64,000 bases of DNA from Alphaproteobacteria bacterium. Lineage in GTDB: Bacteria > Pseudomonadota > Alphaproteobacteria > Caulobacterales > Hyphomonadaceae. The translations under genes and the position numbers were made by a program. Where the stretch lies: positions 1 to 64,000 of the forward strand of contig JAHJYW010000048.1 of the NCBI GenBank assembly GCA_018827375.1, in the 5' to 3' direction. Below, piece after piece: positions 43,960-62,043 of this stretch (the stretch's first letter is position 1; each line of letters opens with the position of its first letter). The notes below the pieces were generated by a model that had not been told where the DNA came from, ran no database searches, and saw only the letters and a program-made list of their open reading frames with translations.

Positions 43960-43990
43960 AGGGCCGGCCCGTAGGGGCTGGCCCTTTTTT
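43960..43990 (+). terminator. Rho-independent terminator after the HU gene
   Basis: An 11-bp stem (43960-43970 with 43975-43985, one G-T pair) has a 4-base loop and runs into six T's. The stop codon of the convergent ligase gene starts at the end of this T run. Confidence 0.88.
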
Positions 43991-45620
43991 ATTGACCCTG
44001 TTCGGCCAGCAGCGCCTCAAGCGTTTCGATCCGGTCGGCTTCGGCTGTCGGCTTGTCCCACCGGATACGGTTGATGCGCGGGAAGCGCATGGCCAGGCCT
44101 GACTTGTGTCGCGGCGAGCGCTGCAGGCCCTCGAACGCTACTTCCAGAACCACGCCTGTCTCCTTGTTTGCCGTGACAGAGCGCACCGGCCCGAACCGGT
44201 CGATCGTGTTGGCGCGCACGAAGGCATCAAGCTGTTTCAGTTCCTCATCGGTAAAGCCGAAATAGGCCTTGCCCACCGGGGTCAATTCGTCTGCGCCGTC
44301 ATTCTCGCGCCAGACGCCGAAGGTGAAATCAGAATAGAAGCTGGACCGCTTGCCATGGCCGCGCTGGGCGTACATCAGCACGGCGTCTACGAGATACGGA
44401 TCACGTTTCCACTTGTACCAGAGGCCCTTGGGGCGCCCCGCGAGATAGGCACTGTCCCAGCGTTTCAGCATCACGCCTTCGATTTCCGGGGCAGGGGGAT
44501 CAAGTCGCGCATCGTCCAGCTTTGCCAGCGTCGTGATCGGCACGAGCGGCGACAGGTCGAACCGGTCGCTCTCGATTGTCAGGATGAAATCCTCAAGTCG
44601 CGCGCGGCGTTCGCGGAATGTCAGTCCGCGTACGTCGCGCGATCCGTCGACAAGAAGATCATAGGCGCGGATGAACGCAGGATGCGTCTCCATTTGTTTC
44701 TTTGACACGGTCTTGCGGTTGAGGCGCTGCTGCAGCGCGTTAAAGGGCGCGACCGTGCCATCGGGATTGCGCACCAGCAGTTCGCCGTCGAGCGTGCCTT
44801 CATAGTCCATCGCGGCAACCACATCGGGGAAGGCGTGCGAAATGTCATCGCCGGTACGTGTGTAGATGCGTCGCGCGTCACGCTCAGCTGAGGCCTGCAC
44901 GCGGATACCGTCATATTTCCATTCGGCGGCGAAGGCCTCGGCGGTGATGACGGACGGGTCGATTGCATCCGGATTGTCGCGGTCGGCCTTGGGCACCAGC
45001 GGGTGGGCGAGCATGACCGGCCGGAAGGGTGCGGCAATATCTGGCGTTGGTTTCTCTGCGCGGTCTTCGAGCCATGCGAAGAGCGATTCGTAGGGCGGTG
45101 CGAGGCCGTGCCAGATTTCCTCGATCTCGGTCACGTCCTTGTTGCCGAACTCCGCCAGCGCCAGTTTCGCGAGCCGCGCGGAGACGCCGATGCGCAGGCC
45201 GCCCGTCAGCAGCTTGAGGAAGGCCCAGCGGCCCGTCGCGTCGAGGCCGTCGAGCCATCCGGCCACAAGGCGCGGTGTCTCGGCGCGCGTTGCCTCGCTG
45301 AGTGTTTCGACAATATCCGATAGCGGCGGTGTGCGGTTGGCCCCGCGCGTATCCGGCCAGACGAGGCTGACAGTTTCTGCCAGGTCGCCGACATAGTCAT
45401 AGGAGAGCGCGAAGAGTTCGGCATCCATGCGCCCGTCCATGAGCGAGCGGATCATGGCGGGCTTGGCGTTCGGAATGTCGAGATCGCCGGTGATGGCGCC
45501 GAGGGCATAGCCGCGGTCAGGGTCCGGCGCGGCGCCGAAATAGGCGGCCATCAGGCGCAGCTTGCCGTTGCGGGAAGGCGTCAGGACCAGTCGGTCTAGG
45601 AGATCGGCAAAGGCTTGCAT
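43989..45620 (-). CDS. ATP-dependent DNA ligase of the damage-response module (LIG)
   Basis: This 543-residue ligase seals DNA nicks using ATP. An N-terminal DNA-binding domain (about residues 1-200) precedes the nucleotidyl transferase domain. Motif I is EWKYDGIR with the AMP-accepting Lys235. YTRTGDDIS and LDGELLV follow, then GVMLKRWDSAYLAGRPKG and WYKWKRD (motifs IV-V), and an OB-fold end with FEGLQRSPRHKSGLAMRFPR. This is the bacterial type named cisplatin damage response ligase. It normally travels with an MBL exonuclease, an Lhr helicase and a phosphoesterase; all three are in this window. Confidence 0.93.
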   Translation of the reverse strand: MQAFADLLDRLVLTPSRNGKLRLMAAYFGAAPDPDRGYALGAITGDLDIPNAKPAMIRSLMDGRMDAELFALSYDYVGDLAETVSLVWPDTRGANRTPPLSDIVETLSEATRAETPRLVAGWLDGLDATGRWAFLKLLTGGLRIGVSARLAKLALAEFGNKDVTEIEEIWHGLAPPYESLFAWLEDRAEKPTPDIAAPFRPVMLAHPLVPKADRDNPDAIDPSVITAEAFAAEWKYDGIRVQASAERDARRIYTRTGDDISHAFPDVVAAMDYEGTLDGELLVRNPDGTVAPFNALQQRLNRKTVSKKQMETHPAFIRAYDLLVDGSRDVRGLTFRERRARLEDFILTIESDRFDLSPLVPITTLAKLDDARLDPPAPEIEGVMLKRWDSAYLAGRPKGLWYKWKRDPYLVDAVLMYAQRGHGKRSSFYSDFTFGVWRENDGADELTPVGKAYFGFTDEELKQLDAFVRANTIDRFGPVRSVTANKETGVVLEVAFEGLQRSPRHKSGLAMRFPRINRIRWDKPTAEADRIETLEALLAEQGQ

Positions 45621-45714
45621 GCAGACTTACATAAGGCCAAACAGGGTTGATGACAGCGTCGGAAACAGGCGCGCAGCCGATAATGGCCCATACGTCTCAA
45701 AGGGAATTTCGTTC

Positions 45715-46329
45715 ATGACGCTCACGCTCCACCATCTCAACGCCTCCCGCTCGCAGCGCATTGTCTGGCTGCTGGCCGAACTCGGCGTGCCGCACGAGAT
45801 TGTCCACTACAAGCGCAATGCCGTGACAAACCTGGCACCGCCGGAGCTGCTCAAGATCCACCCGATGGGCAAGTCGCCGCTGCTGGAAGACGGCGATGTC
45901 GTGATCGCCGAGACGGGCGCCATCGCAGAATACCTGATGGGCAAGTATGACACCGACTTCCACCTTCACCCGCGCCCAAGCTCGCCGGAATTCCCGCGCT
46001 ATCTGGAATGGCTACACGCGGCCGAGGGCGCCATCTTCCTGCCGGGCCTGCTGCAGGTCTATTTTGCCCGCGTCGACATGACGGGCAATCCCGCCAAGGA
46101 GATGATGGCGGCAGAGCGCGAGAAGGCGGCCAGCACGATCGAGGCACACTTGGCCAAGCATTCATACTTCGCAGGTGAGCGCTTCACGGCCGCTGACTGC
46201 CTGATGGGCTTCCAGATCCTGATGTCCGATGCGCAAGGCGGCCTCGAAAACCGGCCCGCAACGAAGGCTTGGTTCGAGAAGATGAAAGCACGCCCTGCCT
46301 ATCAGAAGATGCTGGAAGTGGGCATCTAG
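45715..46329 (+). CDS. Glutathione S-transferase family protein
   Basis: This 204-residue GST has a thioredoxin-like N-terminal domain beginning MTLTLHHLNASRSQRIVWLL, where Ser12 or Arg13 would sit at the glutathione sulfur. MGKSPLLEDGDVVIAETGAI holds the cis-Pro and the gamma-glutamyl-binding motif. The C-terminal helical domain includes FAGERFTAADCLMGF. It probably conjugates glutathione to electrophiles in the cytosol. AAGGGAA precedes the start at 45715; the longer frame reaches back into the ligase promoter region. It is divergent from LIG. Confidence 0.9.
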   Translation: MTLTLHHLNASRSQRIVWLLAELGVPHEIVHYKRNAVTNLAPPELLKIHPMGKSPLLEDGDVVIAETGAIAEYLMGKYDTDFHLHPRPSSPEFPRYLEWLHAAEGAIFLPGLLQVYFARVDMTGNPAKEMMAAEREKAASTIEAHLAKHSYFAGERFTAADCLMGFQILMSDAQGGLENRPATKAWFEKMKARPAYQKMLEVGI

Positions 46330-46336
46330 GCTCGGC

Positions 46337-47545
46337 CTATTTGCACACGTCCGGGTTTGCATCGCAGAGTGCCATCACCGAGCTGATCCAGCGCGTATAG
46401 CCCTGCAGGTTGGTGTAGCGGCCATTATAGTCGCCTGCGCAGAACTCACCGGTGGTGCGGTTCTGCTCGACGACGGACAGCACGCCGACAACCGTCTTGG
46501 TGCCGTCTGCTTCCGTGATGTAAAGCGGGCCGCCGCTGTCCCCGACACATGGGCCTGCGCCACCTGCTGTGGCGACATTGATCAGTGACGGTCCGTCAGC
46601 GGTGATCTTGAGCTGGGTCGACATCAGGTCGTTCGACAGGTTGCCGCCATAATGAGTGAGGCCCCAGCCGGCCATGTCGGCCATCGGATAATTGGCAGGG
46701 GCCAGCGGCTTCTGTGTGTCACCATAGCGGGCAACGGGCACATCGGCGATGGGCGCGATCTGCGCGTCGTTAAGACGGATCAGGGCGAGGTCATTGGCGT
46801 AGCCGTTGGCCGTGCCGAGATAGCCCGCATGGCAGACGGCGACCGTCGCGCTGGTGACCTTGGCAAGCGGGCTGCGCAGATTGGCCGCGTCACCGATCAG
46901 GCGCAGTTCCTGGTAATCATCGTCCACGCAATGGGCTGCCGTGACGAACCAGTTCTGGGCGATGCGCGTGGCGCTGCAATGGCCACTGGTGATTGTGCCG
47001 TCGGGCTGGGGCGCGCGGGGTTCGAGCTTCACGATGCCGGGGAAGCTGGCCAGCGTGGCGGCGAGGCCGTTGACGGCTTCGGTCCCGGCGAGGCTCTCGT
47101 CCTGGACCTTGGCGCCGGAAACTGTAGCAACTGTTGGTGTTGGCGGGCTGCCAGCTGGGCGGCCACAGCTGGCGGCATTGAGCGAGGCGAGCGAGAGCTC
47201 TGGCATCTGCACGGCGAGCGCCATGCCGCCGACGGATTCCGGCTGCAGGGCGGTTTCTTCAGTTGTTTCCGGGGTGATTTCGAGGACTTCTGTGTCCGTT
47301 CCGGGTCCGTTCGGTGCGACTTCCGTGTCCGTTGTGGGGGTGCTCGCAGGTGTTTCGGGCACCACTTCGACGGAACTCGTCACCGTGTCGTCGAAGAGGT
47401 TGCCAGGCAGCTGGTCCAGCGTGCCGGACGTGTCGTCCGATTTCTCGGCGGCGGTCTCTGGCGGGTCACCCGGCAGGCGGATGGCGTCGCAGGCGGCGAG
47501 CGCGAACAGGGCGGCCGTGGCCGCGATGAGGGCTGGGTGTTTCAT
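46337..47545 (-). CDS. Trypsin-like serine protease lipoprotein
   Basis: This 402-residue lipoprotein (LAACDAI, Cys19) has a long Thr/Glu/Pro/Val-rich linker (about residues 25-105) and a chymotrypsin-fold protease domain. The catalytic triad is intact: His205 in VTAAHC, Asp252 in ANDLALI and Ser337 in GDSGGP. Several cysteines are placed as in eukaryotic-like S1A proteases. It is presumably anchored in the envelope with the protease domain held away from the membrane. It sits between LIG and EXO on the same strand, with EXO 57 bp upstream. The longer frame to 47590 is not needed. Confidence 0.9.
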   Translation of the reverse strand: MKHPALIAATAALFALAACDAIRLPGDPPETAAEKSDDTSGTLDQLPGNLFDDTVTSSVEVVPETPASTPTTDTEVAPNGPGTDTEVLEITPETTEETALQPESVGGMALAVQMPELSLASLNAASCGRPAGSPPTPTVATVSGAKVQDESLAGTEAVNGLAATLASFPGIVKLEPRAPQPDGTITSGHCSATRIAQNWFVTAAHCVDDDYQELRLIGDAANLRSPLAKVTSATVAVCHAGYLGTANGYANDLALIRLNDAQIAPIADVPVARYGDTQKPLAPANYPMADMAGWGLTHYGGNLSNDLMSTQLKITADGPSLINVATAGGAGPCVGDSGGPLYITEADGTKTVVGVLSVVEQNRTTGEFCAGDYNGRYTNLQGYTRWISSVMALCDANPDVCK

Positions 47546-47602
47546 ATCGTCCCCTTTGAAAGCACCGATGGCCCTTACTAAAGGGGCCAAGGCGCGGCGG
47601 GG

Positions 47603-48631
47603 TCAACCTGCCTCGTCGTCATAGGCGACCATGCGCAGGGGGCGGGCACGGCGGCCTTCCAGCTCTGCCCAGCGCACGAGGGCGTCTTCGCGGCCATAGG
47701 TGACCCAGAGTTCTTCGGGGTTCACTTCGCGTACGGTCTCGGTCAGTTCGTCCCAGTCGGCATGGTCGGAGATCACCAGTGGCAGTTCGACGCCGCGCTG
47801 TTTTGCCCGCTGTTTTATGCTCATCCAGCCGGAGGCGAAGCCGAGGATCGGGTCGGGGAAGCGCTGGGCCCATTTGCCTTCGAAGGCGCCGGGTGGGGCG
47901 ACGATGATCTTGCCGCGAAACGCCTCGCGGGCGGCCCTGGATGTGTCGTCACTTGTGGCGAGAACCAGAGTGCCGAGATCGATGCCAACTGACTGGTAGT
48001 GCGCGCAGAGCTTTTCGAGACTGCCATGGATGAAGATGGGCTCGTCATAGCCCGCGAGCCGCAGGTGGCGGATCACGCGCTGGGCCTTGCCGAGCGAATA
48101 GGCGCCGATGCAATGGGCGCGTTCGGGAAAGTCGGTCACGCTTTGCAGCAGGCGATTGATCTCGTGGCCCGTATCTGGATGGCGGAAGACAGGCAGGGCG
48201 AAGGTCGCCTCGGAGATGAACACATGTGTGTTCTCGACCGGCTCGAAACTAGCGCAGGTCGGGTCGAAACGGCGTTTGTAGTCGCCGGTAAAGGTCATGC
48301 GCAGGCCCTTGTGCTCGACCACGACCTGGGCCGAGCCGAGGATGTGTCCGGCGGGCGCGAGCCAGACGGTGACGCCGTTGATCTCGATGGTTTCGCCATA
48401 TTCGAGGGCCTGCGTGGACTTGGCGAAATTGGTGCCATAGCGGCAGGCCATGATGGCGAGCGTGTCGGGGTGGGCGAGCACTTTGCCATGACCGCCGCGC
48501 GCATGATCTGAATGGCCGTGGCTGATGACGGCCCGTTCGACCGCGCCGCGCACCGGATCGAGATAGAAATCCCCTGGGGGGCAATAGAGGCCCTTGGGTG
48601 TCGGCTGCAGCAGGAGATCAGGGCGAAGCAT
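47603..48631 (-). CDS. Ligase-associated metallo-beta-lactamase exonuclease (EXO)
   Basis: This 342-residue MBL/beta-CASP-like nuclease carries the metal motif SHGHSDHARGG (His38, His40, Asp42, His43). LAPAGHILGSAQVV supplies the next His, and FTGDYKRRFDPT the bridging Asp. ISEATFALPVFRHP and SLGKAQRVI are hallmarks of the ligase-associated exonuclease family, which digests DNA from 3' ends. The Met at 48631 starts the family-like sequence (MLRPDLLLQPTPKGLYCPPG). LIG lies 2 kb downstream on the same strand. The Hsp70-like gene diverges from it. Confidence 0.92.
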   Translation of the reverse strand: MLRPDLLLQPTPKGLYCPPGDFYLDPVRGAVERAVISHGHSDHARGGHGKVLAHPDTLAIMACRYGTNFAKSTQALEYGETIEINGVTVWLAPAGHILGSAQVVVEHKGLRMTFTGDYKRRFDPTCASFEPVENTHVFISEATFALPVFRHPDTGHEINRLLQSVTDFPERAHCIGAYSLGKAQRVIRHLRLAGYDEPIFIHGSLEKLCAHYQSVGIDLGTLVLATSDDTSRAAREAFRGKIIVAPPGAFEGKWAQRFPDPILGFASGWMSIKQRAKQRGVELPLVISDHADWDELTETVREVNPEELWVTYGREDALVRWAELEGRRARPLRMVAYDDEAG

Positions 48632-48747
48632 GTTCAGAATGTAGGCGATTGCACAAAGCGGGGAAGGGGCTGGCTGCGGCGCCTTTCGCTTTTGGTTCAA
48701 GTGGGCTAGGCGACTTAGCCGCATTCCCCGCACCGAGGGCACCTCCC

Positions 48748-49983
48748 ATGCAAGTCGGCATCGATTTCGGCACGTCCAACACGTCCATCGCGTTTCGCAG
48801 CGCCAAGGGCACACAGCTGATCGCGCTGGAGCCGGACGCAACGTCGATCCCGACGGCGGTCTTTTATGGCTCGACGTCGGGCGAATATGCCATCGGCGCG
48901 GAGGCGGTGAGTGCCTACGAGTCCGGCGAGGAAGGCCGTTTGATGCGGTCGATCAAGTCTGTGCTTGGTTCGTCTTTGATTGACGAGACGACGGAAGTGG
49001 GCCGGCGGCGCCTGCCGTTTCGCGATGTGATCGCGCATTTCCTGACGCGGGTGATTGCCCGCGCCGAGGCGGAGACGGGCGAGCGGGTCGACTCGGTGAT
49101 CCAGGGACGGCCGGTCTCGTTCAATGACCGCCATCCGGAACTTGATGCACGGGCGCAGACCATCCTTGAGGCCTGTCTCAATGTGGCGGGCGTGAATGAG
49201 GTCGAGTTCCTTGACGAACCGGTGGCGGCGGCGCGCTCTGTCAGCTTCGAGGCGGGCCGTGAAAAGCTGGTCTTCGTGGTCGATATCGGCGGCGGTACAT
49301 CGGACTTTTCGGTCGTGCGTATTTCAGCCGACAATACAGGCTTCGATGTGCTGGGCAGCGCCGGGCTCTATGTCGGGGGTAATGATTTCGACCACATGCT
49401 CAGCTTTCACGAACTGTCGAAACTGTTCGGGCATATGGAGACGCTGTCGCTGAACGGATTGCCGGTGCCGTCAGCGCCCTATTCGATCCTGTCGGACTGG
49501 AAGAGCTTGAACAAGCTCTACACGCGCGATGTGCAGAAGCAGATCACCTGGATGAAGATGAACAGTCCGCAGAGCGAAGGGATCCTCGCCTTCGACTATC
49601 TGGTGCGCCACCACGAGGCCCACGGCTATGCCAAGCGCACCGAGCAGATCAAGATCGGCCTCAGCGGCGCCGACCAGCAGGTATTCGCCTATGATACGCC
49701 GGATGCGCACCTCGAAAAAATCGTCGCGCGGGCCGCATTCGAGGGGCTGATCGACGAGGCGATTTCCAAGATGGACGCGGTGGCGGTCGAGTGCCTTGCG
49801 CGGGCAGGGGCGAGGCCGGAGCAGATCACCGATATCGTCATGGTGGGCGGCTCGACCTTCATTCCGCTGGTGCAGGACAGGCTGGCAGCCCGGTTCGGCA
49901 ATGCGACCCTGTCAGCGAACGATCGCTTCGGCGCGGTGGCCAAGGGCCTCGCTGTGCATGGGGCGGCGATGGCGAAGGCCTAG
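48748..49983 (+). CDS. Hsp70-family protein, nucleotide-binding domain only (YegD-like)
   Basis: This 411-residue actin/Hsp70-fold ATPase begins QVGIDFGTSNTSIAFR (phosphate 1). FLDEPVAAARSVSF and VVDIGGGTSDFSVVR (phosphate 2), YVGGNDFDHML and IVMVGGSTFIPLV (adenosine) complete the nucleotide site. It stops there; no peptide-binding domain follows. This fits YegD-like proteins, whose clients are unknown. The start at 48748 begins the conserved domain. It is divergent from EXO with 116 bp between them. This shared promoter region raises the possibility of joint control with the DNA repair gene, though YegD-like genes occur in many contexts. Confidence 0.88.
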   Translation: MQVGIDFGTSNTSIAFRSAKGTQLIALEPDATSIPTAVFYGSTSGEYAIGAEAVSAYESGEEGRLMRSIKSVLGSSLIDETTEVGRRRLPFRDVIAHFLTRVIARAEAETGERVDSVIQGRPVSFNDRHPELDARAQTILEACLNVAGVNEVEFLDEPVAAARSVSFEAGREKLVFVVDIGGGTSDFSVVRISADNTGFDVLGSAGLYVGGNDFDHMLSFHELSKLFGHMETLSLNGLPVPSAPYSILSDWKSLNKLYTRDVQKQITWMKMNSPQSEGILAFDYLVRHHEAHGYAKRTEQIKIGLSGADQQVFAYDTPDAHLEKIVARAAFEGLIDEAISKMDAVAVECLARAGARPEQITDIVMVGGSTFIPLVQDRLAARFGNATLSANDRFGAVAKGLAVHGAAMAKA

Positions 49984-50469
49984 TCAGGCTTTCTTGCGGA
50001 ACAGGGCTTCGGCGGATGCCCGAAAGGCATTGGCGTCTTCGGCGCTGTGGAAGGGGCTGGAGGCGAACGTCCTGCCGTCCGGCGCGGTGAGCATGACTCT
50101 CCACATGTCCTGCGTTTCCACCCAGTCGAGCTGTTTCAGCGCGAACCGCACCTGATCGCGCGGTGTGAAGGCATGCATCTCAGCCGGGCGGAACGGGCGG
50201 TGGACCGTGATGCTGAGATGGCCTGGCGATATCATCCACCGGGATGAGGCGACGATCATGGCCGCGCCGAGAAAGAATGTCCCGATGAGCCAAGTGGCGA
50301 GCACGATGAGGACAATCACGGGCGAGACAGAACCGGGCGGCCACAGGCCGTGCCGCAGGAGCCAGGCCGGGATCAGCAGCGTGGCCAAACCTGCCAGCAC
50401 CAGCATGAGACGGACCACAAGCGTGGTGGGAATGTCATGGTCGATCCGGGTGGTGCGTGGTGGTGCCAT
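49984..50469 (-). CDS. Hypothetical membrane protein, PH-like C-terminal part
   Basis: This 161-residue protein has two membrane segments (about residues 20-40 and 48-72). A cytoplasmic tail has a strand pattern like a small PH domain (GHLSITVHRPFRPAEMHAF, DQVRFALKQLDWVETQDMW, TFASSPFHSAEDANAFRAS). I do not recognise a named family. The Met at 50469 lies 4 bp after the upstream lipoprotein gene's stop, so the two are probably co-transcribed. It is convergent with the Hsp70-like gene, with stop codons abutting. Confidence 0.6.
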   Translation of the reverse strand: MAPPRTTRIDHDIPTTLVVRLMLVLAGLATLLIPAWLLRHGLWPPGSVSPVIVLIVLATWLIGTFFLGAAMIVASSRWMISPGHLSITVHRPFRPAEMHAFTPRDQVRFALKQLDWVETQDMWRVMLTAPDGRTFASSPFHSAEDANAFRASAEALFRKKA

Positions 50470-50473
50470 TACC

Positions 50474-51277
50474 TTAGCCAGCCGACATGCCGCGCACATG
50501 CGCAGCGCGGATGGGCAGCGGGAGTTTCACAAGCGCCTCGTAGATCGTGATCATGGCCTTGCAAGCGGCCATGGCCTGTTCATCCGTCGGGTCCGGCGTG
50601 CCGATATAAGTCGCGCCGCTGGCGGCCTCTGGCGTATCCTGCAAAACCTCGACCATCCATTGCTGAACCTCATCAGGCGGCGTGATGGTGACGGCACCTG
50701 GGGCAGGCATATTCATGATGTCGAGCGTGATGGCGCTTTCGGTATTGCGCAATTGAGACCAACGGTCGGAGTCGATCCGGGGCGCTAGTCCCATCAGCAC
50801 GCGCGCGCAAGCCTGCGCGTCTGTCTGCTCATATTCGTAGTATGACTGGAGTGTCACTTCGGCAGCATCTGATGCCTGCTGATCCGTGGCGCGGAGCATT
50901 GCCTTGCTGGATTCTTCAAGCAGTATTGGCCTGATAGCCTCGGCTCCGGCCTCTGTTGCCTCAAGATAGGTTGCGCCTGCGCCGCGGGCCTTCGTACCTG
51001 CGTCAAGGAAGAGGGGCTCAGTGTCCGTACGCAGGCGGAAGAGCGCAAGTATCAGGGCCACCTCCATTCGTCCCAGGGCAGCGGCCTTGTGGAACTCGGG
51101 CAAGACCTGCGCCCTGAATTCGGCACGGCGAAGGGCGAACGTGTCCGCGTCGGTGAGGTCCAGTTCCGCCTGACCGTCCCGCGGCGCGGCCGGCATCAGC
51201 GCTTTTGAGACACAGGCTGCCAGAAGCAGGCCTGCGCTGATCAGGGCCGCCAGGAGCAATACTTGAGTCTGCGTCAT
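50474..51277 (-). CDS. Unknown lipoprotein, copy 1 of a tandem pair
   Basis: This 267-residue lipoprotein (LLLAACVS, Cys22) is unrecognised. Its body is mostly helical, with Sel1-like features near VLPEFHKAAALGRMEVALIL. It shares two long blocks with the next gene upstream: EESxKAMLRATDQQASDxAEVTL near residue 125, and YIGTPDPTDEQAMA then MITIYE and RGMSAG at the C-terminus. A possible lipid-anchored periplasmic role is all that can be said. It overlaps no gene and is followed by a small membrane protein gene. Confidence 0.75.
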   Translation of the reverse strand: MTQTQVLLLAALISAGLLLAACVSKALMPAAPRDGQAELDLTDADTFALRRAEFRAQVLPEFHKAAALGRMEVALILALFRLRTDTEPLFLDAGTKARGAGATYLEATEAGAEAIRPILLEESSKAMLRATDQQASDAAEVTLQSYYEYEQTDAQACARVLMGLAPRIDSDRWSQLRNTESAITLDIMNMPAPGAVTITPPDEVQQWMVEVLQDTPEAASGATYIGTPDPTDEQAMAACKAMITIYEALVKLPLPIRAAHVRGMSAG

Positions 51278-51352: not shown

Positions 51353-52150
51353 TCAGCCTGCCGACATGCCGCGCATATAGGCGGCGCGGCGGGCCAGCGG
51401 CAGTTTGCCAAGCTCCTCGTAGATCGTGATCATTGTGTTGCATATGGCCATGGCCTGTTCATCGGTCGGATCGGGCGTGCCGATATAGGTGGCGCCGGTG
51501 CCCGCTGCCGGTTTGTCCCTGAAGACGTCGCCCATCCATGTCTGGACATCCTCTATTGGCGTCACGCGGAAACCGCCCTGGTCAGGCGCATTCAGGATGT
51601 CGACGGTGATGGCGCTTTCGGCATTTCGCAGTTCAGCCAGCCGGTCGGAGGTGAGCAGGGGCGAGAGGCCGATGGCAGTGCGGGCGCAATCCTGCACGGC
51701 GGTTGTCTCGAATTCGCGGAACTCCTTGAGCGTCACTTCGGCAAAATCTGACGCCTGCTGGTCGGTGGCGCGCAGCATGGCCTTGTTTGATTCTTCGATC
51801 AGTACTGGCCGGATGGCGTCGCCGCCGGCGCGCCCAGCTTCTGTATAGGTGGCGCCCTCGCGGCGGGCCTGGGCCGCGGTCTCAAGAAACACGGTTTCCG
51901 TTTCCGGACGCAGGCGGAAAAGGGCGAGGAACAGCGCTGCATCCATCTGGCCATTGGCCGCAGCGGTCTCGAATTCCGGGATGATCTTCGCCTGCAGTTC
52001 GGCCTCGTCAGTGGTGAATGCGCCGGTGTCGCCACTGTCCAGCTGTGCTTCGCCGTCCGGCGCCGGTAGCGGCTCTTGCTTGCCGCAGGCGACCAGCAGC
52101 AGGCCTGCACTGAGCAGGACGATATGCATGAAATTCCGAGTGTGCGTCAT
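51353..52150 (-). CDS. Unknown lipoprotein, copy 2 of a tandem pair
   Basis: This 265-residue lipoprotein (LLLVACGK, Cys22) is a paralogue of the downstream gene. They are similar throughout and identical in the last stretch RGMSAG. Shared features are the acidic N-terminal region after the lipobox, EFETAAANGQMDAALFLALF, the ATDQQASDFAEVTL block and YIGTPDPTDEQAM. Two cysteines (DCARTAIG and ICNTMI) recur in the same places and may form a disulfide. The start at 52150 begins the signal peptide. A serine hydrolase gene diverges from it, 162 bp away. Confidence 0.75.
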   Translation of the reverse strand: MTHTRNFMHIVLLSAGLLLVACGKQEPLPAPDGEAQLDSGDTGAFTTDEAELQAKIIPEFETAAANGQMDAALFLALFRLRPETETVFLETAAQARREGATYTEAGRAGGDAIRPVLIEESNKAMLRATDQQASDFAEVTLKEFREFETTAVQDCARTAIGLSPLLTSDRLAELRNAESAITVDILNAPDQGGFRVTPIEDVQTWMGDVFRDKPAAGTGATYIGTPDPTDEQAMAICNTMITIYEELGKLPLARRAAYMRGMSAG

Positions 52151-52312
52151 TGGCGAAAGGCCTCCCCGTTCTGTCTTCAGGATTAGAGGCGTCATAAGGG
52201 GCGCAAACGGGTCAGGGCGCTCATGGGGTTGTGCAAATCTTAACTGCCCCGCCATACTTGCGACATGAAGCGATGTGCATAGAGTTGCGCACTCAACAGG
52301 AGAGATTTGCCC

Positions 52313-53842
52313 ATGCGTCCCGTCAGAGCCGTGTTCGTATCCCTTGCTGCGCTTGCAGTGTCTGCCATGCCTGCGATTGCGCAGGAGGGTGGCAATACAG
52401 ACGAGATGGATGCCGCGCTGGCAGCAGGCTGGAAAGCCAGCTTCACTTGCTCTGACCTGTTCAATGCCGGCCAGTCCATGGCGGAGATCGCGCAGAACGA
52501 TCTCTCGGGCATCTATCCCGATTACCAGCGTGCCTATGACAAGCTGCCCGGCGCGCAGGTGAACACGATGCAGAAGACCGTGTCGGTGACCTATTCAGCC
52601 ACGATGCCGCCGCGTATTTCCGCCTGGCGCCCGGGCTTTGGCTGTACGCAGCTGCCGATCGGGGCTGATACGAGCCAGATTGCTTTCCTGCCGCATTTCG
52701 CCAGCTGGCCCGCTGCGCCCGCCGCTGACCGGGGCAGTGCTATTGGCTCGAACGTGAAGATCCAGCTGCGCACCGAAGAGGCCGAACGGCTGGAATTGCC
52801 GGTCTCGTCGGCCTTTGATGAGCGCACTTATGGCAATGGCACGCGCACAAGCGCCGTGCTGGTCGTGCGTGACGGTCAGGTCGTGGCCGAGCGCTATGCC
52901 CTTGGCGTCGACCATGAGACGCCGCAGCGGACATGGTCTGTCGGCAAGTCCATCGCAGCCACCGTGCTGGGCGCCGCGCGCCGCAACGGGCTGATCGATA
53001 TCGATTATCCGGCCGTGATCGACGACTGGAACAATGGCGCCGATCCGCGCCGCAACATCACGATCCGCAACCTGATGCACATGGCGAGCGGCCTCGACAG
53101 CGGCGAGAGCGGCTCGCGCACCGACCGCATCTATTTTGGCGGTGGCCGCGTGATTGACCAGTCAGCCAGCAAGGTGCTGGAGGCGGCGCCGGGAACGCGC
53201 TTCAAGTATTCAAACAATGACACGCTGATCGCGATGCGCAGCTTGCGTGAGGCGATGAAGGATGATGATGCCTTCCACCGATTCCCGTATGAGAAAGTGC
53301 TGAACAAGATCGGCGCAGCCCATACGACGATGGAAATCGACTGGAACGGTGATTTCATCGCGTCGAGCCAGGTCTGGTCAACGGCGCGCGACCTTGCCCG
53401 CGTGGGCCAGCTTTACCTGCAGGACGGCATGTGGGGCAATGAGCGCCTGCTGCCGGAAGGCTGGGCGAAATTCGTGCGCACACCGGCGCCAGCCCAACCG
53501 GCGACAGGCCCTGGCTATGGCGCGCAATTCTGGCTGATGACCGATGCGCCGGGTGTGCCGTCGGACGTCTATTACATGGCCGGCAATCGCGGACAGTATG
53601 TCGTCATCGCGCCGAGCATGAATGCCGTGATCGTGCGGCGTGGCTATGACGCCAATGGCGGTGCGGGTTTCCAGATCAATGATTTCACGCGCGACGTGCT
53701 TCTGGCCCTGCAGGCGGCTGACAATGAGCGCGCGGCACAGCGGTCGCAGGCCGAGCTTGATGCCCAGATGGAAAACATGACGCCGAAGGAACGCGCGAAA
53801 TTCCTCGCCGACCAGCAGGCCACGCAAGCCCAGCCGAACTAG
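52313..53842 (+). CDS. Serine hydrolase, class C beta-lactamase-like, with N-terminal extension
   Basis: This exported 509-residue protein has a signal peptide ending AIAQ and an extra N-terminal region with two cysteines (FTCSDLF, GFGCTQLP). A penicillin-recognising hydrolase domain follows, with Ser209xxLys212 in WSVGKS, KYSNNDTL (Tyr-x-Asn) and YMAGNRGQYVVI. A charged helical tail (residues about 460-509) ends it. The start is the ATG at 52313, after AGGAGAG. It may be an esterase or a peptidase acting on the wall. It is divergent from the tandem lipoproteins. Confidence 0.88.
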   Translation: MRPVRAVFVSLAALAVSAMPAIAQEGGNTDEMDAALAAGWKASFTCSDLFNAGQSMAEIAQNDLSGIYPDYQRAYDKLPGAQVNTMQKTVSVTYSATMPPRISAWRPGFGCTQLPIGADTSQIAFLPHFASWPAAPAADRGSAIGSNVKIQLRTEEAERLELPVSSAFDERTYGNGTRTSAVLVVRDGQVVAERYALGVDHETPQRTWSVGKSIAATVLGAARRNGLIDIDYPAVIDDWNNGADPRRNITIRNLMHMASGLDSGESGSRTDRIYFGGGRVIDQSASKVLEAAPGTRFKYSNNDTLIAMRSLREAMKDDDAFHRFPYEKVLNKIGAAHTTMEIDWNGDFIASSQVWSTARDLARVGQLYLQDGMWGNERLLPEGWAKFVRTPAPAQPATGPGYGAQFWLMTDAPGVPSDVYYMAGNRGQYVVIAPSMNAVIVRRGYDANGGAGFQINDFTRDVLLALQAADNERAAQRSQAELDAQMENMTPKERAKFLADQQATQAQPN

Positions 53843-53854
53843 GCCCGAAGGAGC

Positions 53855-54538
53855 CTATTTCGTGCCCATGCCGGATTCCGGCAGGGGCTTGAGATTGGTG
53901 ATCGTCTGGCGTTCGGACTCGCTGAAATCCTTCATCATGGCCGACCCGTTGATGTCGACATTTATGCGGGCGATGTGTGTGCGCCCGTCGGGCGCGCGGG
54001 AGCAGTCGAAATTCAGTTTGAACGTCTTGATCTTTGCCACGGGTAGGGGGCGGAACGGCTTTTCCGACACCATCTCGACTGACAGGATGGCGGGATCGTC
54101 CTTTGCCACGACGACCTTCCCGGTCAGGTATTTGTAGACATCGTCGAGATCGTCGGGCTTGGCGCCCTTTTGCGGCTTGAATGTGTAGGTCGCGGTCGTG
54201 GGCGTCTCGGAGACGAGCGCCGCGTCATCGGGAATGTTTTCGCCGAAGCCCTGGCACCAGATGTCGCCATCCGTGTCAGCGTCCATCTTGTCGACCAGCT
54301 TGCGGAAATCATCGGTCCAGTCCTTTTCAGGTGGTGAAATAACGGTGAGGCGCTCGCCTTCAGGCCGGGACGGGTCGATGCGGAGCATGGCATCGGTGTC
54401 GCTGTTCTGGATGATCACGTCGAACATGTAGAGCGGGCCGTCCGCCCTGGCAGCGAGGGCGTCTTGCAGCGGGGTGCCCGCGGCGGCGTGGAAGGGCAGC
54501 AGCGCGAGCAGTGCGAGCGGGAGGTAAGCGTGGCGCAT
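53855..54538 (-). CDS. Hypothetical exported protein
   Basis: This 227-residue protein has a signal peptide (LLALLPFHAAA, to about residue 20) and a mostly beta, acidic periplasmic domain. Visible features are PLYMFDVIIQNSDTDAMLRI, DKMDADTDGDIWCQGFGE and LNFDCSRAPDGRTHIARINV, with two cysteines that could pair. I recognise no family. It is divergent from the Lhr-type helicase (107 bp between starts) and convergent with the serine hydrolase gene. Confidence 0.65.
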   Translation of the reverse strand: MRHAYLPLALLALLPFHAAAGTPLQDALAARADGPLYMFDVIIQNSDTDAMLRIDPSRPEGERLTVISPPEKDWTDDFRKLVDKMDADTDGDIWCQGFGENIPDDAALVSETPTTATYTFKPQKGAKPDDLDDVYKYLTGKVVVAKDDPAILSVEMVSEKPFRPLPVAKIKTFKLNFDCSRAPDGRTHIARINVDINGSAMMKDFSESERQTITNLKPLPESGMGTK

Positions 54539-54645
54539 GATCTGTCCTTCGATTCGGCGTGAGGTTGTGTGAGAGCAGCCTTCACCTGAACCGGGCCTGA
54601 AAATAAAGAGGCAACGTCTCCGTCTTGCGTTAGTTTAATCCGGAC

Positions 54646-57135
54646 ATGCCCGATAGCGCCGCCCTGACATTCACCCTGCCGGAGCCCTTTGCGGGCTGGT
54701 TCGCTGCGCGTGGCTGGCAGGCGCGGCCGCACCAGCTGGCGCTGACGGAAGCGGCGCTGGCGGGCGAGAGCGCTCTGCTGATTGCGCCGACGGGCGGGGG
54801 CAAGACGCTGGCGGGTTTCCTCGCGAGCCTGATCGAGCTGAAGGACAAGGGGCGGCAGTCGAACAGCGGCATCCCGGCGCTGCACACGCTTTATATCTCG
54901 CCACTCAAGGCGCTGGCGGTGGATGTGCAGCGCAACCTGATGGCGCCGGTGGGGGAGATGGACCTGCCGATCCGCATCGAGACGCGCACGGGCGACACGC
55001 CAGCGCATGTGCGCCAGCGGCAGCGGCGCAACCCGCCGGACGTCCTGCTGACGACGCCGGAACAGCTCGCGCTGTTCATTGCCTCGGACCACGCCAAGGA
55101 CTTCTTCGCTGACCTGAAATGCGTGATCATTGACGAGGTGCACGCGATGGCCGCGTCGAAGCGGGGGGACTTGCTGTCGCTTGGCTTGGCGACGCTGGCG
55201 GAATGGGCCCCGGCCTGCCGGTTCATCGGCCTTTCGGCCACGGTGAAGGAGCCGGAGGAGCTGGCGCGCTGGCTGTCGCCGGAGGCGCGCATCATCAGGG
55301 CGCAGGGGGGTGTGTCGGCCGAAGTCGATATCCTTGTCTCCCGTGAGCGGATTCCATGGTCGGGGCATTCGGGGCGATTTGCCGTGCCGGAAGTGTATGA
55401 GGCGATCAAAAGCGCGAAGATGGCGCTGGTGTTTGTGAACACGCGCAGCCAGGCCGAGTTCATGTTCCAGGAGCTGTGGCGGGCGAATGAGGACGGGCTG
55501 CCGATTGCGTTGCATCATGGCTCGCTGGCCAAGGAACAGCGCGTGCGTGTCGAGGCGGCGATGGCGGCGGGACAGCTCAAAGCGGTAGTGTGTACCTCGA
55601 CGCTCGATCTTGGCATCGATTGGGGCGAGGTGGACCTCGTGATCCAGATGGGCGCGCCGAAGGGCGCGGCGCGATTGATCCAGCGGATCGGGCGGGCGAA
55701 CCACCGGATGGACGAGGCGAGCCGGGCTGTGCTGGTGCCCACGAACCGGTTCGAGGTGCTGGAATGCCGCGCGGCGGAGGCAGCAGTCGAGGCGGGCGAG
55801 ATTGATGGCGAAGGATTGCGCCAAGGATCGCTCGACGTGCTGGCGCAGCATGTGATGGGGCGGGCCTGCGGCGACGGGTTTGAACTCGCGCCACTCTACG
55901 ATGAGATCATCCGCGCGGCACCTTATGCGTGGCTCGATTGGGAGACGTTCGAGCGGATTGTCGATTTCGTGGCCAGTGGCGGCTATGCGCTGAAGACGTA
56001 TGACCGTTTCCACCGGATCGTGCGGCGGCCGGACGGGCGCTGGGTGGCGCGCACGCGGCAGGATGCACAGCAGCACCGGATGAATGTCGGCGCGATTGTC
56101 GAGGCGGTGCAATTGTCGGTGCGGCTGGCAAGCTTTGTAGGGAAGGGGCAGGCGGGCGATTCCAAGCGGACGATGCGGGCCGGCCACAAGCTGGGCGAGG
56201 TGGAGGAATATTTCATCTCCACGCTGGTGCCGGGCGACACGTTCCTGTTTGGCGGCGAAGTGCTACGCCTGATTGGCGTTGAGGGCCTCGACGCGCTGGT
56301 GGTTCGGGCGGTGGGCGAGAAGCCCGCCATACCGAGTTACAATGGCGGGAAATTTCCGCTGACCACATTCCTTGCCGAGCGTGTGCGCCAGATGATCCAT
56401 GACCCGGCGCAGTGGGACGGGCTGCCGGCGCCGGTGCGCGAATGGTTCGAGGTTCAGGTGCGCCGCTCCAGCATTCCGCCGCCCGACCATTTGCTGGTGG
56501 AGACCTTTCCGCGGGGCGAGCGGCATTACATGGTGTGCTATCCGTTCGAGGGGCGCCTCGCGCACCAGACGCTTGGCATGCTGCTGACGCGGCGGCTGGA
56601 GCGGATGGGGGCTAAGCCGCTCGGCTTCGTGGCGAGCGAATATGCCATGTCGGTCTGGGCGATGGAGGACATGTCAGGGCTCGACATGGGCGACCTGTTC
56701 CACCCGGACATGCTGGGCGACGACCTTGAGGAATGGCTGGACGAGAGCGCGTTGATGAAGCGGACCTTCGCGCATTGTGCACAGATCTCCGGCCTGATTG
56801 CACGCAACCTTCCGGGCAAGGAGAAGAACTCGCGGCAGGTGAGCTTTTCCAGTGACCTGATCTATGACGTGCTGCGCAGCCACGAGCCGGACCATATCTT
56901 GCTGCAGGCAGCGCGGCAGGACGCGTCGACGGGCCTGCTCGATGTGCGGCGCCTGTCTGACATGCTGGTGCGGATACGCGGCAAGATCGACCACAACGTG
57001 CTGGACCATATCAGCCCGTTTGCCGTGCCGGTGATGCTGGAAATGGGGCGAGAGCCTGTGTTCGGTGCCTCTGTTCAGGACGCCGTGCTGGGAGAGGCGG
57101 AGGCAGACCTCGTGCGCGATGCGATGCGGGATTAG
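54646..57135 (+). CDS. Ligase-associated DEXH-box helicase, Lhr-Core type (LHR)
   Basis: This 829-residue superfamily 2 helicase moves on single-stranded DNA and unwinds duplexes or RNA:DNA hybrids. Walker A is APTGGGKTLAGF (Lys53) and the DEVH box is at residues 163-166. The SAT motif GLSATVKEPEEL and motif VI QRIGRANHRMDEAS complete the two RecA domains. A winged helix and the Lhr-specific domain follow (ETFPRGERHYMVCYPFEGR, SEYAMSVWAMED). The length matches Lhr-Core without the long C-terminal extension of full Lhr. MPE is 2.3 kb downstream, with two genes of the opposite strand between them. Confidence 0.94.
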   Translation: MPDSAALTFTLPEPFAGWFAARGWQARPHQLALTEAALAGESALLIAPTGGGKTLAGFLASLIELKDKGRQSNSGIPALHTLYISPLKALAVDVQRNLMAPVGEMDLPIRIETRTGDTPAHVRQRQRRNPPDVLLTTPEQLALFIASDHAKDFFADLKCVIIDEVHAMAASKRGDLLSLGLATLAEWAPACRFIGLSATVKEPEELARWLSPEARIIRAQGGVSAEVDILVSRERIPWSGHSGRFAVPEVYEAIKSAKMALVFVNTRSQAEFMFQELWRANEDGLPIALHHGSLAKEQRVRVEAAMAAGQLKAVVCTSTLDLGIDWGEVDLVIQMGAPKGAARLIQRIGRANHRMDEASRAVLVPTNRFEVLECRAAEAAVEAGEIDGEGLRQGSLDVLAQHVMGRACGDGFELAPLYDEIIRAAPYAWLDWETFERIVDFVASGGYALKTYDRFHRIVRRPDGRWVARTRQDAQQHRMNVGAIVEAVQLSVRLASFVGKGQAGDSKRTMRAGHKLGEVEEYFISTLVPGDTFLFGGEVLRLIGVEGLDALVVRAVGEKPAIPSYNGGKFPLTTFLAERVRQMIHDPAQWDGLPAPVREWFEVQVRRSSIPPPDHLLVETFPRGERHYMVCYPFEGRLAHQTLGMLLTRRLERMGAKPLGFVASEYAMSVWAMEDMSGLDMGDLFHPDMLGDDLEEWLDESALMKRTFAHCAQISGLIARNLPGKEKNSRQVSFSSDLIYDVLRSHEPDHILLQAARQDASTGLLDVRRLSDMLVRIRGKIDHNVLDHISPFAVPVMLEMGREPVFGASVQDAVLGEAEADLVRDAMRD

Positions 57136-57148
57136 GGCTGGGCCCGTC

Positions 57149-58291
57149 TCAGGATGAGCGCTTGGGCACGGCAGGTGACGGTGTCAGCGCCGCGAGCCGT
57201 TCAAACACGCCATGCACCAGACGTTTCCAGAAGCCGAGGCGGCGCTCCGACACTTCTGCCAGCAGGAAGCAGGCAATGAGCGTGCCGGCGGCCATCAGCG
57301 CGGCGTGCAGCGGGTTGGCGCTGTCATAGGCGGGCAGACCGTGGAGGAAGGTCAGGATCGGATAGTGGAAGAGGTAGAGCGAGAAGGTCGCCCCGGCGCA
57401 CCAGCGGATGGCGGCCTCTGCGCGGGCGCCCAGCCAGTCGGCATTGCGGGCGAGGCGGTAGACGCCGAGGAAGTGCAGCGCCATCAGCGCGGCGATCCCG
57501 AAGTTCCAGATGAACTCGTCCGAAAAGCCGAAGAGCGCGTTGGGCGTGACCTGCTCGCCGAGCAGCTTGTAGGTATACCAGGTCAGGCGCTGGGGCATGT
57601 GCAGGGCGAGGGCGACGGCATAGATGGCCCAGGGCGCGATGGCGAGCAGCCAGCCCTTTGTGCGTGACAGAGAAGCGCCGTAGCCGCGCGCGACCAGCTG
57701 TTGCAGGCCGACACCCAGCAGCCAGCAGGGCCCAAGCAACAGCACGCGTGGGCCGACGACCAGCGCCATCAGCGCGAGGAGCAGGATACGCGTGCGGCCT
57801 TTGCAGAAGACGGCAACGCCGAAGCCGGCATAATACCAGGCCTCATAGGCGACCGACCAGAACGGGCCATTGGAGCCGACGCGTGTGTTGTCGGTCCACA
57901 TCTGCGTGGTGAAGGTGAGTCCCTGAAGGAGCTGGGCAATGCGGTCTTCGCCATTGTACCACCAGCCCTGATAAGCGCCCGGAACAGCTAGCGTACCGAG
58001 CGTGTCGAGCGCGAAGGTGAAGATCAGCGCCGGGATGATGACGGAATAGAGCCGGGCGATACGGGCCTCGGCATAGGCTGCCGGGCCGCGATCGCGTGCG
58101 AACGTGGTGAAGGCGATGACGAAGCCGGAGAGAACGAAGAAGACGACGACAGCGTCGCTGCCGAGGTTCATCTCGCGGATCCAGGCCATGTTGCCGTTGG
58201 TGAACCGGTCATAGCCCATATGCGAGGCAAACACGATCAGGGCGGCAAGGAAGCGAAGCGCATCGAGATAGATGGAGAAGCCGCGGGTCAT
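57149..58291 (-). CDS. Acyltransferase 3 family membrane protein
   Basis: This 380-residue protein has about ten hydrophobic segments. Acyltransferase-3 motifs are DALRFLAALIVFASHMGY near the N-terminus (active His in ASHMG), VFFVLSGFVIAF, RIARLYSVIIPALI and GPFWSVAYEAWYY, the last holding the conserved Glu. Such proteins acetylate sugars of the envelope or lipids from the inner membrane. Its start overlaps the stop of the sterol desaturase-like gene upstream by 4 bp, so the two are coupled and may act on the same lipid. Confidence 0.88.
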   Translation of the reverse strand: MTRGFSIYLDALRFLAALIVFASHMGYDRFTNGNMAWIREMNLGSDAVVVFFVLSGFVIAFTTFARDRGPAAYAEARIARLYSVIIPALIFTFALDTLGTLAVPGAYQGWWYNGEDRIAQLLQGLTFTTQMWTDNTRVGSNGPFWSVAYEAWYYAGFGVAVFCKGRTRILLLALMALVVGPRVLLLGPCWLLGVGLQQLVARGYGASLSRTKGWLLAIAPWAIYAVALALHMPQRLTWYTYKLLGEQVTPNALFGFSDEFIWNFGIAALMALHFLGVYRLARNADWLGARAEAAIRWCAGATFSLYLFHYPILTFLHGLPAYDSANPLHAALMAAGTLIACFLLAEVSERRLGFWKRLVHGVFERLAALTPSPAVPKRSS

Positions 58292-59316
58292 TCGGCAGCC
58301 ATCTGCTGCGGCGCGCGCCGCTCGCGCAGCACGCTGGCGGCTTCGGTGAAGGGTACTGCATAGGCGGTGACGAGGGACGTGTGAACCTGCGGCTCCGGCA
58401 CGCCATTGGCATCGGCCACACCGAACTGAAGCGCCTCGCGGCCCTGCGGGATGTAGAGCGTGCCGAAGGCCCAGTCCCAGATCGCGAAGACGAGACCGTA
58501 ATTCTTGTCATGATGGCGCGGGGCCATGGAATGATGGATCTGGTGCTGCGCAGGGCTAATGAAGACGTGGTCGAGCAGTGGTCCAAAATCGAGCCAGATG
58601 TGCGAATGGCGCAGGGCCCCGCCCGCGAAATTGAAGGCGGCGAAGATCACGCTGATGCCGAAGATCGTGGCCACGTCATACATGCCGAACAGGCCGTAAA
58701 TCACGCCGACGACCGGGCCGATGAAGAGCGCGTTCATCATCGCCAGCAGGAGATCGAACAGCGGATGGTTGCGCTTTGCGGTCAGCAAGGTGAGGTGCTC
58801 GGCGCTGTGGTGCAGCTTGTGGAATGGCCAGAGGACCGGGTTCTCGTGGTGCCAGCGGTGGTTCACGTAATAGGCAAAGTCGGCGGCCAGCGCGGCGAGG
58901 AAGGCCGCGAGCATGAGCATTGGAAACGACAGCGTCCCGTCGCCTGCCTCGCCGTGTAGGCCCGTGCCGACCTGACGGGCGACAAAGGCGACGATCAGGA
59001 AACGCAATCCGCGGGAGAGCAGGATCCGGAGGGGATCGAACAGGTGGTTGGCGAGGAAGACTTTCGCGTCAAGCAGGGATGAGCGCGAGAGATAGATGTG
59101 CGAGGGGACCAGGAAATTGACGAGGCTGGTGAAGCCTTCTTCGCGGATGGTCTTGCGGTTGAACACCCAGATCACGCTGCCGATCAGCAGGAAGGCGGCG
59201 AGGCCGGTCCAGTGGGTGCGGTCGCTCGTGCCGAAGGGAAGAAGGCCGAACAGCCAGTGCCCCACGCGCGGCGCGATGCCCATGGCATCGCTCAGGGAGA
59301 CTGCAGATTCGACCAT
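58288..59316 (-). CDS. Sterol desaturase / fatty acid hydroxylase family membrane enzyme
   Basis: This 342-residue di-iron membrane oxygenase has the histidine boxes HRWHH, HKLHHSAEH and QIHHSMAPRHHDKNYG in order, with about five membrane spans. Family members hydroxylate or desaturate sterols, fatty acids or carotenoids. The start at 59316 is preferred because GAGG lies 9 bases before it; a longer frame begins at 59358 without a visible ribosome site. It is translationally coupled to the acyltransferase 3 gene and lies between LHR and MPE, pointing the other way. Confidence 0.88.
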   Translation of the reverse strand: MVESAVSLSDAMGIAPRVGHWLFGLLPFGTSDRTHWTGLAAFLLIGSVIWVFNRKTIREEGFTSLVNFLVPSHIYLSRSSLLDAKVFLANHLFDPLRILLSRGLRFLIVAFVARQVGTGLHGEAGDGTLSFPMLMLAAFLAALAADFAYYVNHRWHHENPVLWPFHKLHHSAEHLTLLTAKRNHPLFDLLLAMMNALFIGPVVGVIYGLFGMYDVATIFGISVIFAAFNFAGGALRHSHIWLDFGPLLDHVFISPAQHQIHHSMAPRHHDKNYGLVFAIWDWAFGTLYIPQGREALQFGVADANGVPEPQVHTSLVTAYAVPFTEAASVLRERRAPQQMAAE

Positions 59317-59471
59317 CACCAACGACCTCGGCACATCATTTTTTGTCTGTTGCCTCATGCGGTTCTAGGGAAACATGTTTAAAGCCGTGTAAAGACAGGC
59401 GATTTTCCGGGCATCGCGCCTTGTGGAACAAGCGTTTGACCCGCCTCGCGATGCGGGCCACTTTCACCTCC

Positions 59472-60191
59472 ATGACTGCTGTTGCTGCGCGACCCTCGGA
59501 TACGATGCTGCACTTGTGCGGCGAGCTTCTTTTGCCGCTGCCGGAAGGCGCGCTGTGGTGGGCTGCCGAGCGCGTGCTGGTGGTGTCGGACCTGCACCTG
59601 GAAAAGGGCAGTGCCTATGCGGCGCGCGGGCAGATGTTGCCGCCTTATGACACGGGCGCGACGCTGAACCTGGTGGAGCGGCTGTGTGCGGCGTTGAAGC
59701 CGCGGACCGTGATTTCACTGGGCGACAGTTTCCATGACCGGGCAGCCGAGCTGCGCCTGCCAGCGCCCTATGCGGCGCGGATACAGGCGCTGACCGGGGC
59801 GCATGACTGGGTCTGGGTGGAGGGCAACCATGACCCCGACCCGCCGGCGCATCTTGGCGGGCGCGCGGCGAAAGTGTTGCGGATCGGATCGCTTGTGTTC
59901 CGGCATGAACCGACGGGCGAGGCGGGCGAGATTGCCGGCCACCTGCACCCGGCAGCGAAGGTGAAGGGGCGCGGGCGCATGGTGCGGCGGCGCTGTTTTG
60001 CCAGCGACGGGGCGCGTCTGGTGATGCCGGCCATGGGCACGTTCACCGGCGGACTGAATGTGCTCGATGCGGCCTTCGCGCCGCTCTTCCCGGAAGGCCT
60101 GATGGCCTTTGCACTGGGCGGCGAGCGCGTGTTTGCGGTGTCAGCGAAAAGCCTCGTGCCGGATGTGGCCGCAGCCCGCTGGCGGCTTTAG
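59472..60191 (+). CDS. pdeM: Ligase-associated metallophosphoesterase (MPE/PdeM)
   Basis: This 239-residue calcineurin-like phosphoesterase is of the ligase-associated type. Metal ligands are in DLHLEKG (Asp40, His42), GDSFHD, GNHDPD and GHLHPAAKV, and the preceding WWAAERVLVVSD is typical of the family. Biochemically studied relatives hydrolyse 2',3'-cyclic phosphodiesters and DNA phosphodiesters. The start at 59472 removes a 43-residue frame that runs through the divergent promoter. The gene's end overlaps the convergent AsmA-like gene by 4 bp. It is the fourth member of the repair set after LIG, EXO and LHR. Confidence 0.92.
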   Translation: MTAVAARPSDTMLHLCGELLLPLPEGALWWAAERVLVVSDLHLEKGSAYAARGQMLPPYDTGATLNLVERLCAALKPRTVISLGDSFHDRAAELRLPAPYAARIQALTGAHDWVWVEGNHDPDPPAHLGGRAAKVLRIGSLVFRHEPTGEAGEIAGHLHPAAKVKGRGRMVRRRCFASDGARLVMPAMGTFTGGLNVLDAAFAPLFPEGLMAFALGGERVFAVSAKSLVPDVAAARWRL

Positions 60192-61993: not shown

Positions 61994-62043
61994 TTTTCCG
62001 TAACGTGCCGGAACGGCTTTGGTTCATTGCAGGCGCGGCGGGC

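Follow-up and report, generated by a model that had tools for sequence, protein, structure and literature searches.

Hyphomonas carries a loosened LIG-EXO-LHR-MPE repair set that probably works as two separable gene pairs

Among the closest described relatives of the genes studied here is the LIG-EXO-LHR-MPE cluster of Pseudomonas putida, in which the four genes are contiguous. P. putida LHR is a 3'-to-5' helicase and MPE a Mn-dependent single-strand endonuclease; LIG seals, and EXO shares its MBL fold with crosslink-repair nucleases. This nucleic-acid-repair gene cluster was reportedly described by Ejaz and Shuman in 2018 and by Ejaz, Goldgur and Shuman in 2019. The four proteins are usually handled as one cluster, and their joint task is not known. 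We analysed the set in a 64,000-nucleotide stretch (the window) of the alphaproteobacterial contig JAHJYW010000048.1 (assembly GCA_018827375.1) and compared it across related genomes. We consider it likely, with a probability of roughly 0.7, that the locus is the usual alphaproteobacterial arrangement of two divergent pairs, loosened in Hyphomonas, and that the set acts in two parts that can be separated, LHR-MPE and LIG-EXO.

The window holds a complete repair set. An earlier note, made from the letters of the window, had placed all four genes, and each is present once, at the position and on the strand given there (Table 1), with a score above its curated NCBIfam cut-off. The motifs it had read are borne out too: KYDG (Lys235) in LIG, HGHSDH in EXO, DEVH in LHR and GNHD in MPE agree with the KxDG, HGHxDH, DExH and GNHD signatures of the set. 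The start of EXO was set at MLRPD; that of MPE probably lies downstream of the start of its open reading frame (ORF), the family match opening at residue 57. The window genome (3.63 Mb, 99.9% complete) is a Hyphomonas, and among the matches listed its LHR is nearest to those of H. oceanitis (93%) and H. johnsonii (92%). It has a single ligase-domain match, one copy each of LIG, EXO and MPE, and one LHR above cut-off. A second intact LIG-EXO-LHR-MPE cluster, a possibility that the note had raised, was absent from a profile search of the 3.63 Mb.

Described systems frame the comparison. In having all four families above the NCBIfam cut-offs, the window resembles both the P. putida cluster and the ligase-associated DNA damage response set of NCBIfam (TIGR04120, TIGR04121, TIGR04122 and TIGR04123). 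It departs from the P. putida layout in having two divergent pairs and ten interleaved genes instead of one tight cluster, and the genus departs from the NCBIfam set in that some Hyphomonas have a foreign pair in place of half of it. The ten genes (two in the LIG-EXO gap, six in the EXO-LHR gap, two in the LHR-MPE gap) had been counted as about nine and rightly called unrelated; the LIG-EXO gap measures 2.0 kb. The proximity of MPE to Lhr-Core genes is already known: PMC8301817 counts an MPE gene close to blhr in 276 of 319 genomes. Hyphomonas is similar in that LHR and MPE stay together even without LIG-EXO, and the window is dissimilar in that 2.2 kb and two lipid-enzyme genes lie between them.

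The divergent layout recurs well beyond the window genome. We searched 101 genomes of the family with profiles for the four families and oriented each by LHR. Resident LIG is kept in 23 of the 38 Hyphomonas genomes, and 16 of these 23 have the order LIG(-) EXO(-) LHR(+) MPE(+) on a single contig. At least one of the four genes is on a separate contig in the other seven; contig ends lie close to the genes in five of them (G040, G052, G055, G093, G099). The remaining two are G076, on contigs C1 and C2, and G058, on contigs C4 and C9, where LHR-MPE and LIG, respectively, sit on another contig even though one of the two contigs extends beyond the expected place, by rearrangement or misassembly. 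Genus g5 has the same four-gene order on one contig in 9 of 15 genomes, and 14 of the 29 genomes of genus g4 keep LIG(-) EXO(-) LHR(+) inside 6.3 kb, their MPE being at another location. LIG-EXO spacing is 12–198 bp in one g3 and six g4 genomes and at least 1.8 kb in all 17 one-contig resident Hyphomonas pairs. G031 carries two LHR-MPE sets (C68, C93) yet a single LIG and a single EXO.

The wider class shows the same orientation. LIG lies within 12 kb of LHR in 33 genomes of a class sample, and in 31 of the 33 it is upstream on the opposite strand, many distances being about 1.1 kb, which leaves room for EXO. These 33 belong to 71 genomes with LIG, a count that omits the window and its genus mate G005; in the rest LIG and LHR are on different contigs (29) or farther apart (8), or LHR is missing (1). 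Some of the class LIG matches are weak (34–44% identity) and may be other ligases. Among 34 LHR loci of other alphaproteobacteria (assigned by record title, though one of them, L080, is titled Hyphomonadaceae), 17 of which extend about 10 kb on both sides, MPE is matched in 34 and LIG or EXO in 4. The window has the divergent LIG-EXO / LHR-MPE orientation of these other alphaproteobacteria. Because its order is shared across the genus and its opposite strands across the near class pairs, the layout is not peculiar to this genome. The note had seen correctly that the order is kept and the strands differ, opposite strands being the usual alphaproteobacterial layout. Its proposal that the cluster was invaded in this lineage holds as far as insertion goes, and fails as to lineage, since the interleaving is common to the genus and variable over the family. 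Judged from the sequences compared, the base form would be two divergent pairs, with every gap in Hyphomonas filled by what appear to be unrelated inserted genes.

One clade of Hyphomonas has lost half of the set. In its 15 genomes resident LIG and EXO are missing from the frame of conserved neighbours, and LHR and MPE are found in all 15. The 13 loci long enough to be read (those of G098 and G100 are cut by contig ends) all have the frame up267-TRY-BLA-orphan-LHR-MPE-S24, in which TRY is a trypsin-like lipoprotein, BLA a serine hydrolase, the orphan a 227-aa protein and S24 an S24-peptidase/LexA-like gene. HU, LIG and GST have gone from the left of TRY, where the flanking matches lie -48 to 83 bp apart; EXO has gone from its right, leaving a gap of 116–445 bp. 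Two deletions would be required if TRY never moved. A tree of eight frame proteins maps the lack of the resident pair to a single change, on a branch supported at 100/100. In relatives outside the genus the frame does include LIG and EXO, in some cases separated by TRY, and the absence is therefore a loss. Family profile searches found no LIG-EXO pair at all in 6 of the 15 genomes.

The loss clade also bears on the idea that the interleaved genes (TRY, BLA, Hsp70, the lipoproteins) are functional partners of the repair genes, recruited beside them. TRY, BLA and the 227-aa orphan do recur next to repair genes in much of the genus, but all three remain in place in 13 of 13 loss-clade loci after LIG and EXO have gone. 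The Hsp70, lipoprotein, acyltransferase and hydroxylase genes are patchy within the genus, and TRY and BLA begin with signal-like sequences. We reject recruitment as highly improbable. The comparison of neighbours in close relatives that the note had proposed finds them conserved, not random; they follow position, however, and not the repair genes.

LHR and MPE appear to be useful without LIG-EXO. In three pairs of pairless genomes, dN/dS is 0.09–0.12 for LHR and 0.10–0.12 for MPE; in two pairs of genomes with resident LIG-EXO the values are 0.06–0.09 and 0.07–0.11. Within the foreign-pair groups introduced below, they are 0.05 and 0.09 (A1) and 0.15 and 0.10 (B). All values come from the best matching stretch only, and among the pairless comparisons G036 and G064 are sisters whereas the other two comparisons are not between sisters. 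On balance, these values argue for retention of LHR-MPE under purifying selection. A short insert of about 45–70 aa near LHR profile position 200 occurs, scattered, in G013, G044, G046, G047, G049, G064 and others.

Co-occurrence is asymmetric in the same direction. Across the 101 family genomes, the complete set occurs in 83, LHR and MPE with neither LIG nor EXO in 10, no member in 4, and some other state in 4. Those four are G055 and G089, each with LIG and no EXO (in G055 the place of EXO coincides with a break between contigs; G089 is in 590 contigs); G091 (84% complete), with EXO and no LIG; and G007 (82% complete), in which MPE is missing. The family counts include 97 LHR (90 above cut-off, 7 broken or partial below it) and 86 LIG (85 above cut-off); a partial MPE match of 72 bits in G069 was scored absent. 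In the class sample of 289 genomes, LIG is found in 73, LHR in 99 and both in 72, leaving one genome with LIG alone and 27 with LHR alone. The class was searched for LIG and LHR, not EXO or MPE, with few candidates per genome scored and E thresholds of 1e-40 for LIG (one protein query) and 1e-150 for LHR.

The missing half has been refilled from elsewhere in part of the clade. Nine of the 15 loss-clade genomes carry a foreign LIG-EXO pair at another place, the two genes adjacent, with 24–33 bp between their profile matches in all nine. The foreign LIG and EXO are about 50% identical to those of the window, and the three pairs scanned, one per site, pass both NCBIfam cut-offs. The pairs occupy three sites: A1 (G032, G086, G092, G100), A2 (G090) and B (G066, G068, G078, G098). 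None of the 101 family genomes has a resident and a foreign pair together, which is compatible with either order of events, loss first or gain first. An assembly or binning artefact is unlikely: a B pair lies in the single-contig genome G068 (3,705,021 bases), the B loci of G066, G068 and G078 align across 19–20 kb, and the empty B site was located in another single-contig genome, G022.

The foreign pairs appear to be of two origins, near a group that is probably sphingomonad. Quick trees of LIG (79 loci plus the window) and EXO (78 plus the window) were built from a selection of 135 LIG and 126 EXO loci, some of which are the same gene twice; L262, L263, L169 and L170 were retrieved and then set aside. 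Resident genes group with their family in both trees, and types A and B, together with a pair from another genus (G010), group with family f14. Among named plasmid matches to type A the best is from Sphingomonas (64.8%), which is why f14 is probably Sphingomonadaceae. In a joint LIG and EXO alignment of 40 loci, a single A+B clade is rejected (p-AU 0.003, in a test posed after the quick trees were known), as is one clade of A, B and resident pairs (p 2e-13). No close donor was found for type B, whose best match, at 60%, lies in f14. In the G010 locus (C1:865959-868360; L167) the LHR match is broken in two frames, as is EXO, through decay or sequencing errors, and this genome with a broken LHR carries the foreign-kind LIG-EXO pair.

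Site comparisons speak against an old duplication. If the Hyphomonas ancestor had carried a resident and a second pair, with lineages keeping either, the foreign pairs would be ancient. Nothing supports this directly; foreign-pair GC (0.64–0.68) is near that of the flanks (0.61–0.66) and does not mark recency, but donor GC may be similar. Against it, none of the 101 family genomes has two full LIG genes; the paired LIG matches in G023, G024 and G041 are pieces from two model ends, overlapping by 54 positions in G023. The pairs also sit at three separate sites, and a common A+B clade is rejected. In G022 the B site is empty, with about 33 bp instead of 2.66 kb. It is nearly empty in G046 as well (about 0.28 kb in place of 2.9 kb), and in G095 the gene flanking it had no match. 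A clean empty site was not obtained for type A: the AcrB side of A1 aligns in G080 and G090, and the other side does not. We regard ancient paralogous pairs as very unlikely.

A narrower proposal, which we advance tentatively, treats LIG-EXO as a self-contained repair cassette that can be exchanged and that plugs into an LHR-MPE core already resident. Neither member would be kept singly: once insertions had separated the two, loss of one would have entailed loss of the other across a gene that stayed, and lineages would afterwards have acquired intact foreign cassettes from two or more origins. If so, the 'four-gene system' would be a two-gene core plus a swappable two-gene module. A similar unit occurs on the Phaeobacter inhibens plasmid pP59_a, where EXO and LIG overlap by one base and no LHR or MPE is annotated within 6 kb on either side. 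It differs in that its ligase is about 50% identical to the type A ligase, and the plasmid is typed non-mobilizable.

A neutral history would account for much of this with no functional pairing: loose linkage was inherited, one clade lost LIG and EXO by drift, and the foreign copies arrived as an operon. The loss within the genus is one event that took HU and GST with it, and co-transfer is expected where the two genes are adjacent in most possible donors, as suggested by the presence of EXO in 26 of 30 class loci (L171-L200, which extend about 1.5 kb past LIG). Drift explains less readily that LIG and EXO have disappeared on both flanks of a TRY that stayed, in 13 of 13 loci, that the same clade took up pairs of two origins, and that the class-wide asymmetry is strong (1 LIG alone versus 27 LHR alone). 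We judge this history unlikely, and two separable units remain our preferred account.

Several observations count against that account. A single loss within the genus is by itself weak evidence of dependence, and with HU and GST gone from the frame alongside LIG, and Hsp70 absent next to the place of EXO, LIG and EXO need not be what mattered. The class genome G338 has LIG with no LHR match, and a Sphingomonas plasmid carries LIG with no EXO annotated within 6 kb on either side, in an incomplete plasmid gene table. Parts of the paths behind the pairless dN/dS values may pass through ancestors carrying a foreign pair, and the argument from selection is softer for it. Genus g3 breaks the pattern: its five genomes (of seven) with all four genes on one contig place EXO and LIG on the strand of LHR, 35–57 kb downstream of it, which makes the divergent layout common without being universal.

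This separation into pairs points to a division of labour, which we infer along with step order and substrate. LHR-MPE would open and incise damaged DNA, a step useful even without LIG-EXO. LIG-EXO would trim and seal the ends, be useful mainly as a pair, and be lost and regained as a two-gene cassette; in genomes that lack the pair, its part may be taken over by the replicative ligase and other exonucleases. A clade in which half of the set was lost, half was kept under selection and the gap was partly refilled is a natural experiment on gene dependence. One genus offers resident-pair strains, strains with two kinds of foreign pair and pairless strains, so that the division of labour can be tested directly. 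The literature searched, a body that most subscription papers fall outside, yielded no paper on Hyphomonas and none on LIG-EXO replacement in this or any other genus.

Table 1. Repair, interleaved and flanking genes, in positions of the window
Feature	Positions	Strand	Match or remark
HU/IHF-like protein (HU), Lys/Ala-rich N-terminal tail, tail-to-tail with LIG	43457-43930	(+)	HU/IHF models, under their cut-offs
LIG, ATP-dependent DNA ligase of the four-gene repair set	43989-45620	(-)	TIGR04120, 792 bits (cut-off 400)
Glutathione S-transferase (GST) fold protein, LIG-EXO gap	45715-46329	(+)	Pfam GST_N/GST_C
TRY, trypsin-like lipoprotein, LIG-EXO gap	46337-47545	(-)	PF00089
EXO, MBL-fold ligase-associated exonuclease	47603-48631	(-)	TIGR04122, 443 bits (cut-off 325)
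YegD-like Hsp70, divergent from EXO	48748-49983	(+)	PF00012; NF008673, 188 bits (under cut-off 331)
Orphan, sporadic, EXO-LHR gap	49984-50499	(-)	No Pfam match
Lipoprotein-like protein, sporadic, EXO-LHR gap	50474-51277	(-)	No Pfam match
Second lipoprotein-like protein, sporadic, EXO-LHR gap	51353-52255	(-)	No Pfam match
BLA, serine hydrolase (beta-lactamase fold), genus-wide frame member	52307-53842	(+)	PF00144
227-aa orphan, signal-like N-terminus, divergent from LHR	53855-54538	(-)	33/35 genus loci with enough upstream sequence
LHR, Lhr-Core DEXH helicase	54646-57135	(+)	TIGR04121, 1091 bits (cut-off 850)
Acyltransferase family 3, patchy, LHR-MPE gap	57149-58291	(-)	PF01757
Fatty-acid hydroxylase (OlsE-like), patchy, LHR-MPE gap	58288-59358	(-)	PF04116; NF052566, 68 bits (under cut-off 475)
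MPE/PdeM metallophosphoesterase	59343-60191	(+)	TIGR04123, 220 bits (cut-off 150)
S24-peptidase/LexA-like gene, downstream of MPE in much of the genus	62019-62720		

The genes around the repair set fall into a frame and a variable remainder. HU, GST, TRY, BLA, the 227-aa orphan and the S24-type gene form the frame over much of Hyphomonas; the two lipoprotein-like proteins of the remainder are paralogues. The loss clade has a 50–55% identical HU at another place in 12 of 13 genomes tested.

Two routes to common regulation were tried and rejected. GTTCN7GTTC is the LexA/SOS box motif of alphaproteobacteria. A search for exact matches found one in 64 kb, against 1.5 expected by chance, and it lies at 47298, within TRY and not upstream of the repair genes. 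The S24/LexA-like gene as a regulator fared no better, scoring 25 bits against a lexA cut-off of 111 and being inconstant among resident-type loci; it was not found in the loci of eight resident-type genomes of one subclade (L115, L118, L122, L123, L124, L137, L142, L148). Three distant alphaproteobacteria (L079, L093, L103) have a 56–60% identical S24-type gene about 3–8 kb away from LHR.

The 227-aa orphan shares the promoter region of LHR. Among named Hyphomonadaceae-like loci it occurs in 34 of 43, and among the family loci L002-L031 in 18 of 30; none of 30 other alphaproteobacterial loci has it. The gap between BLA and this orphan measures 2.0–2.1 kb in 10 of 13 loss-clade loci; its content was read in G095 alone, where a 633-aa lipoprotein-like ORF (L144, 6673-8574, minus strand) occupies the space.

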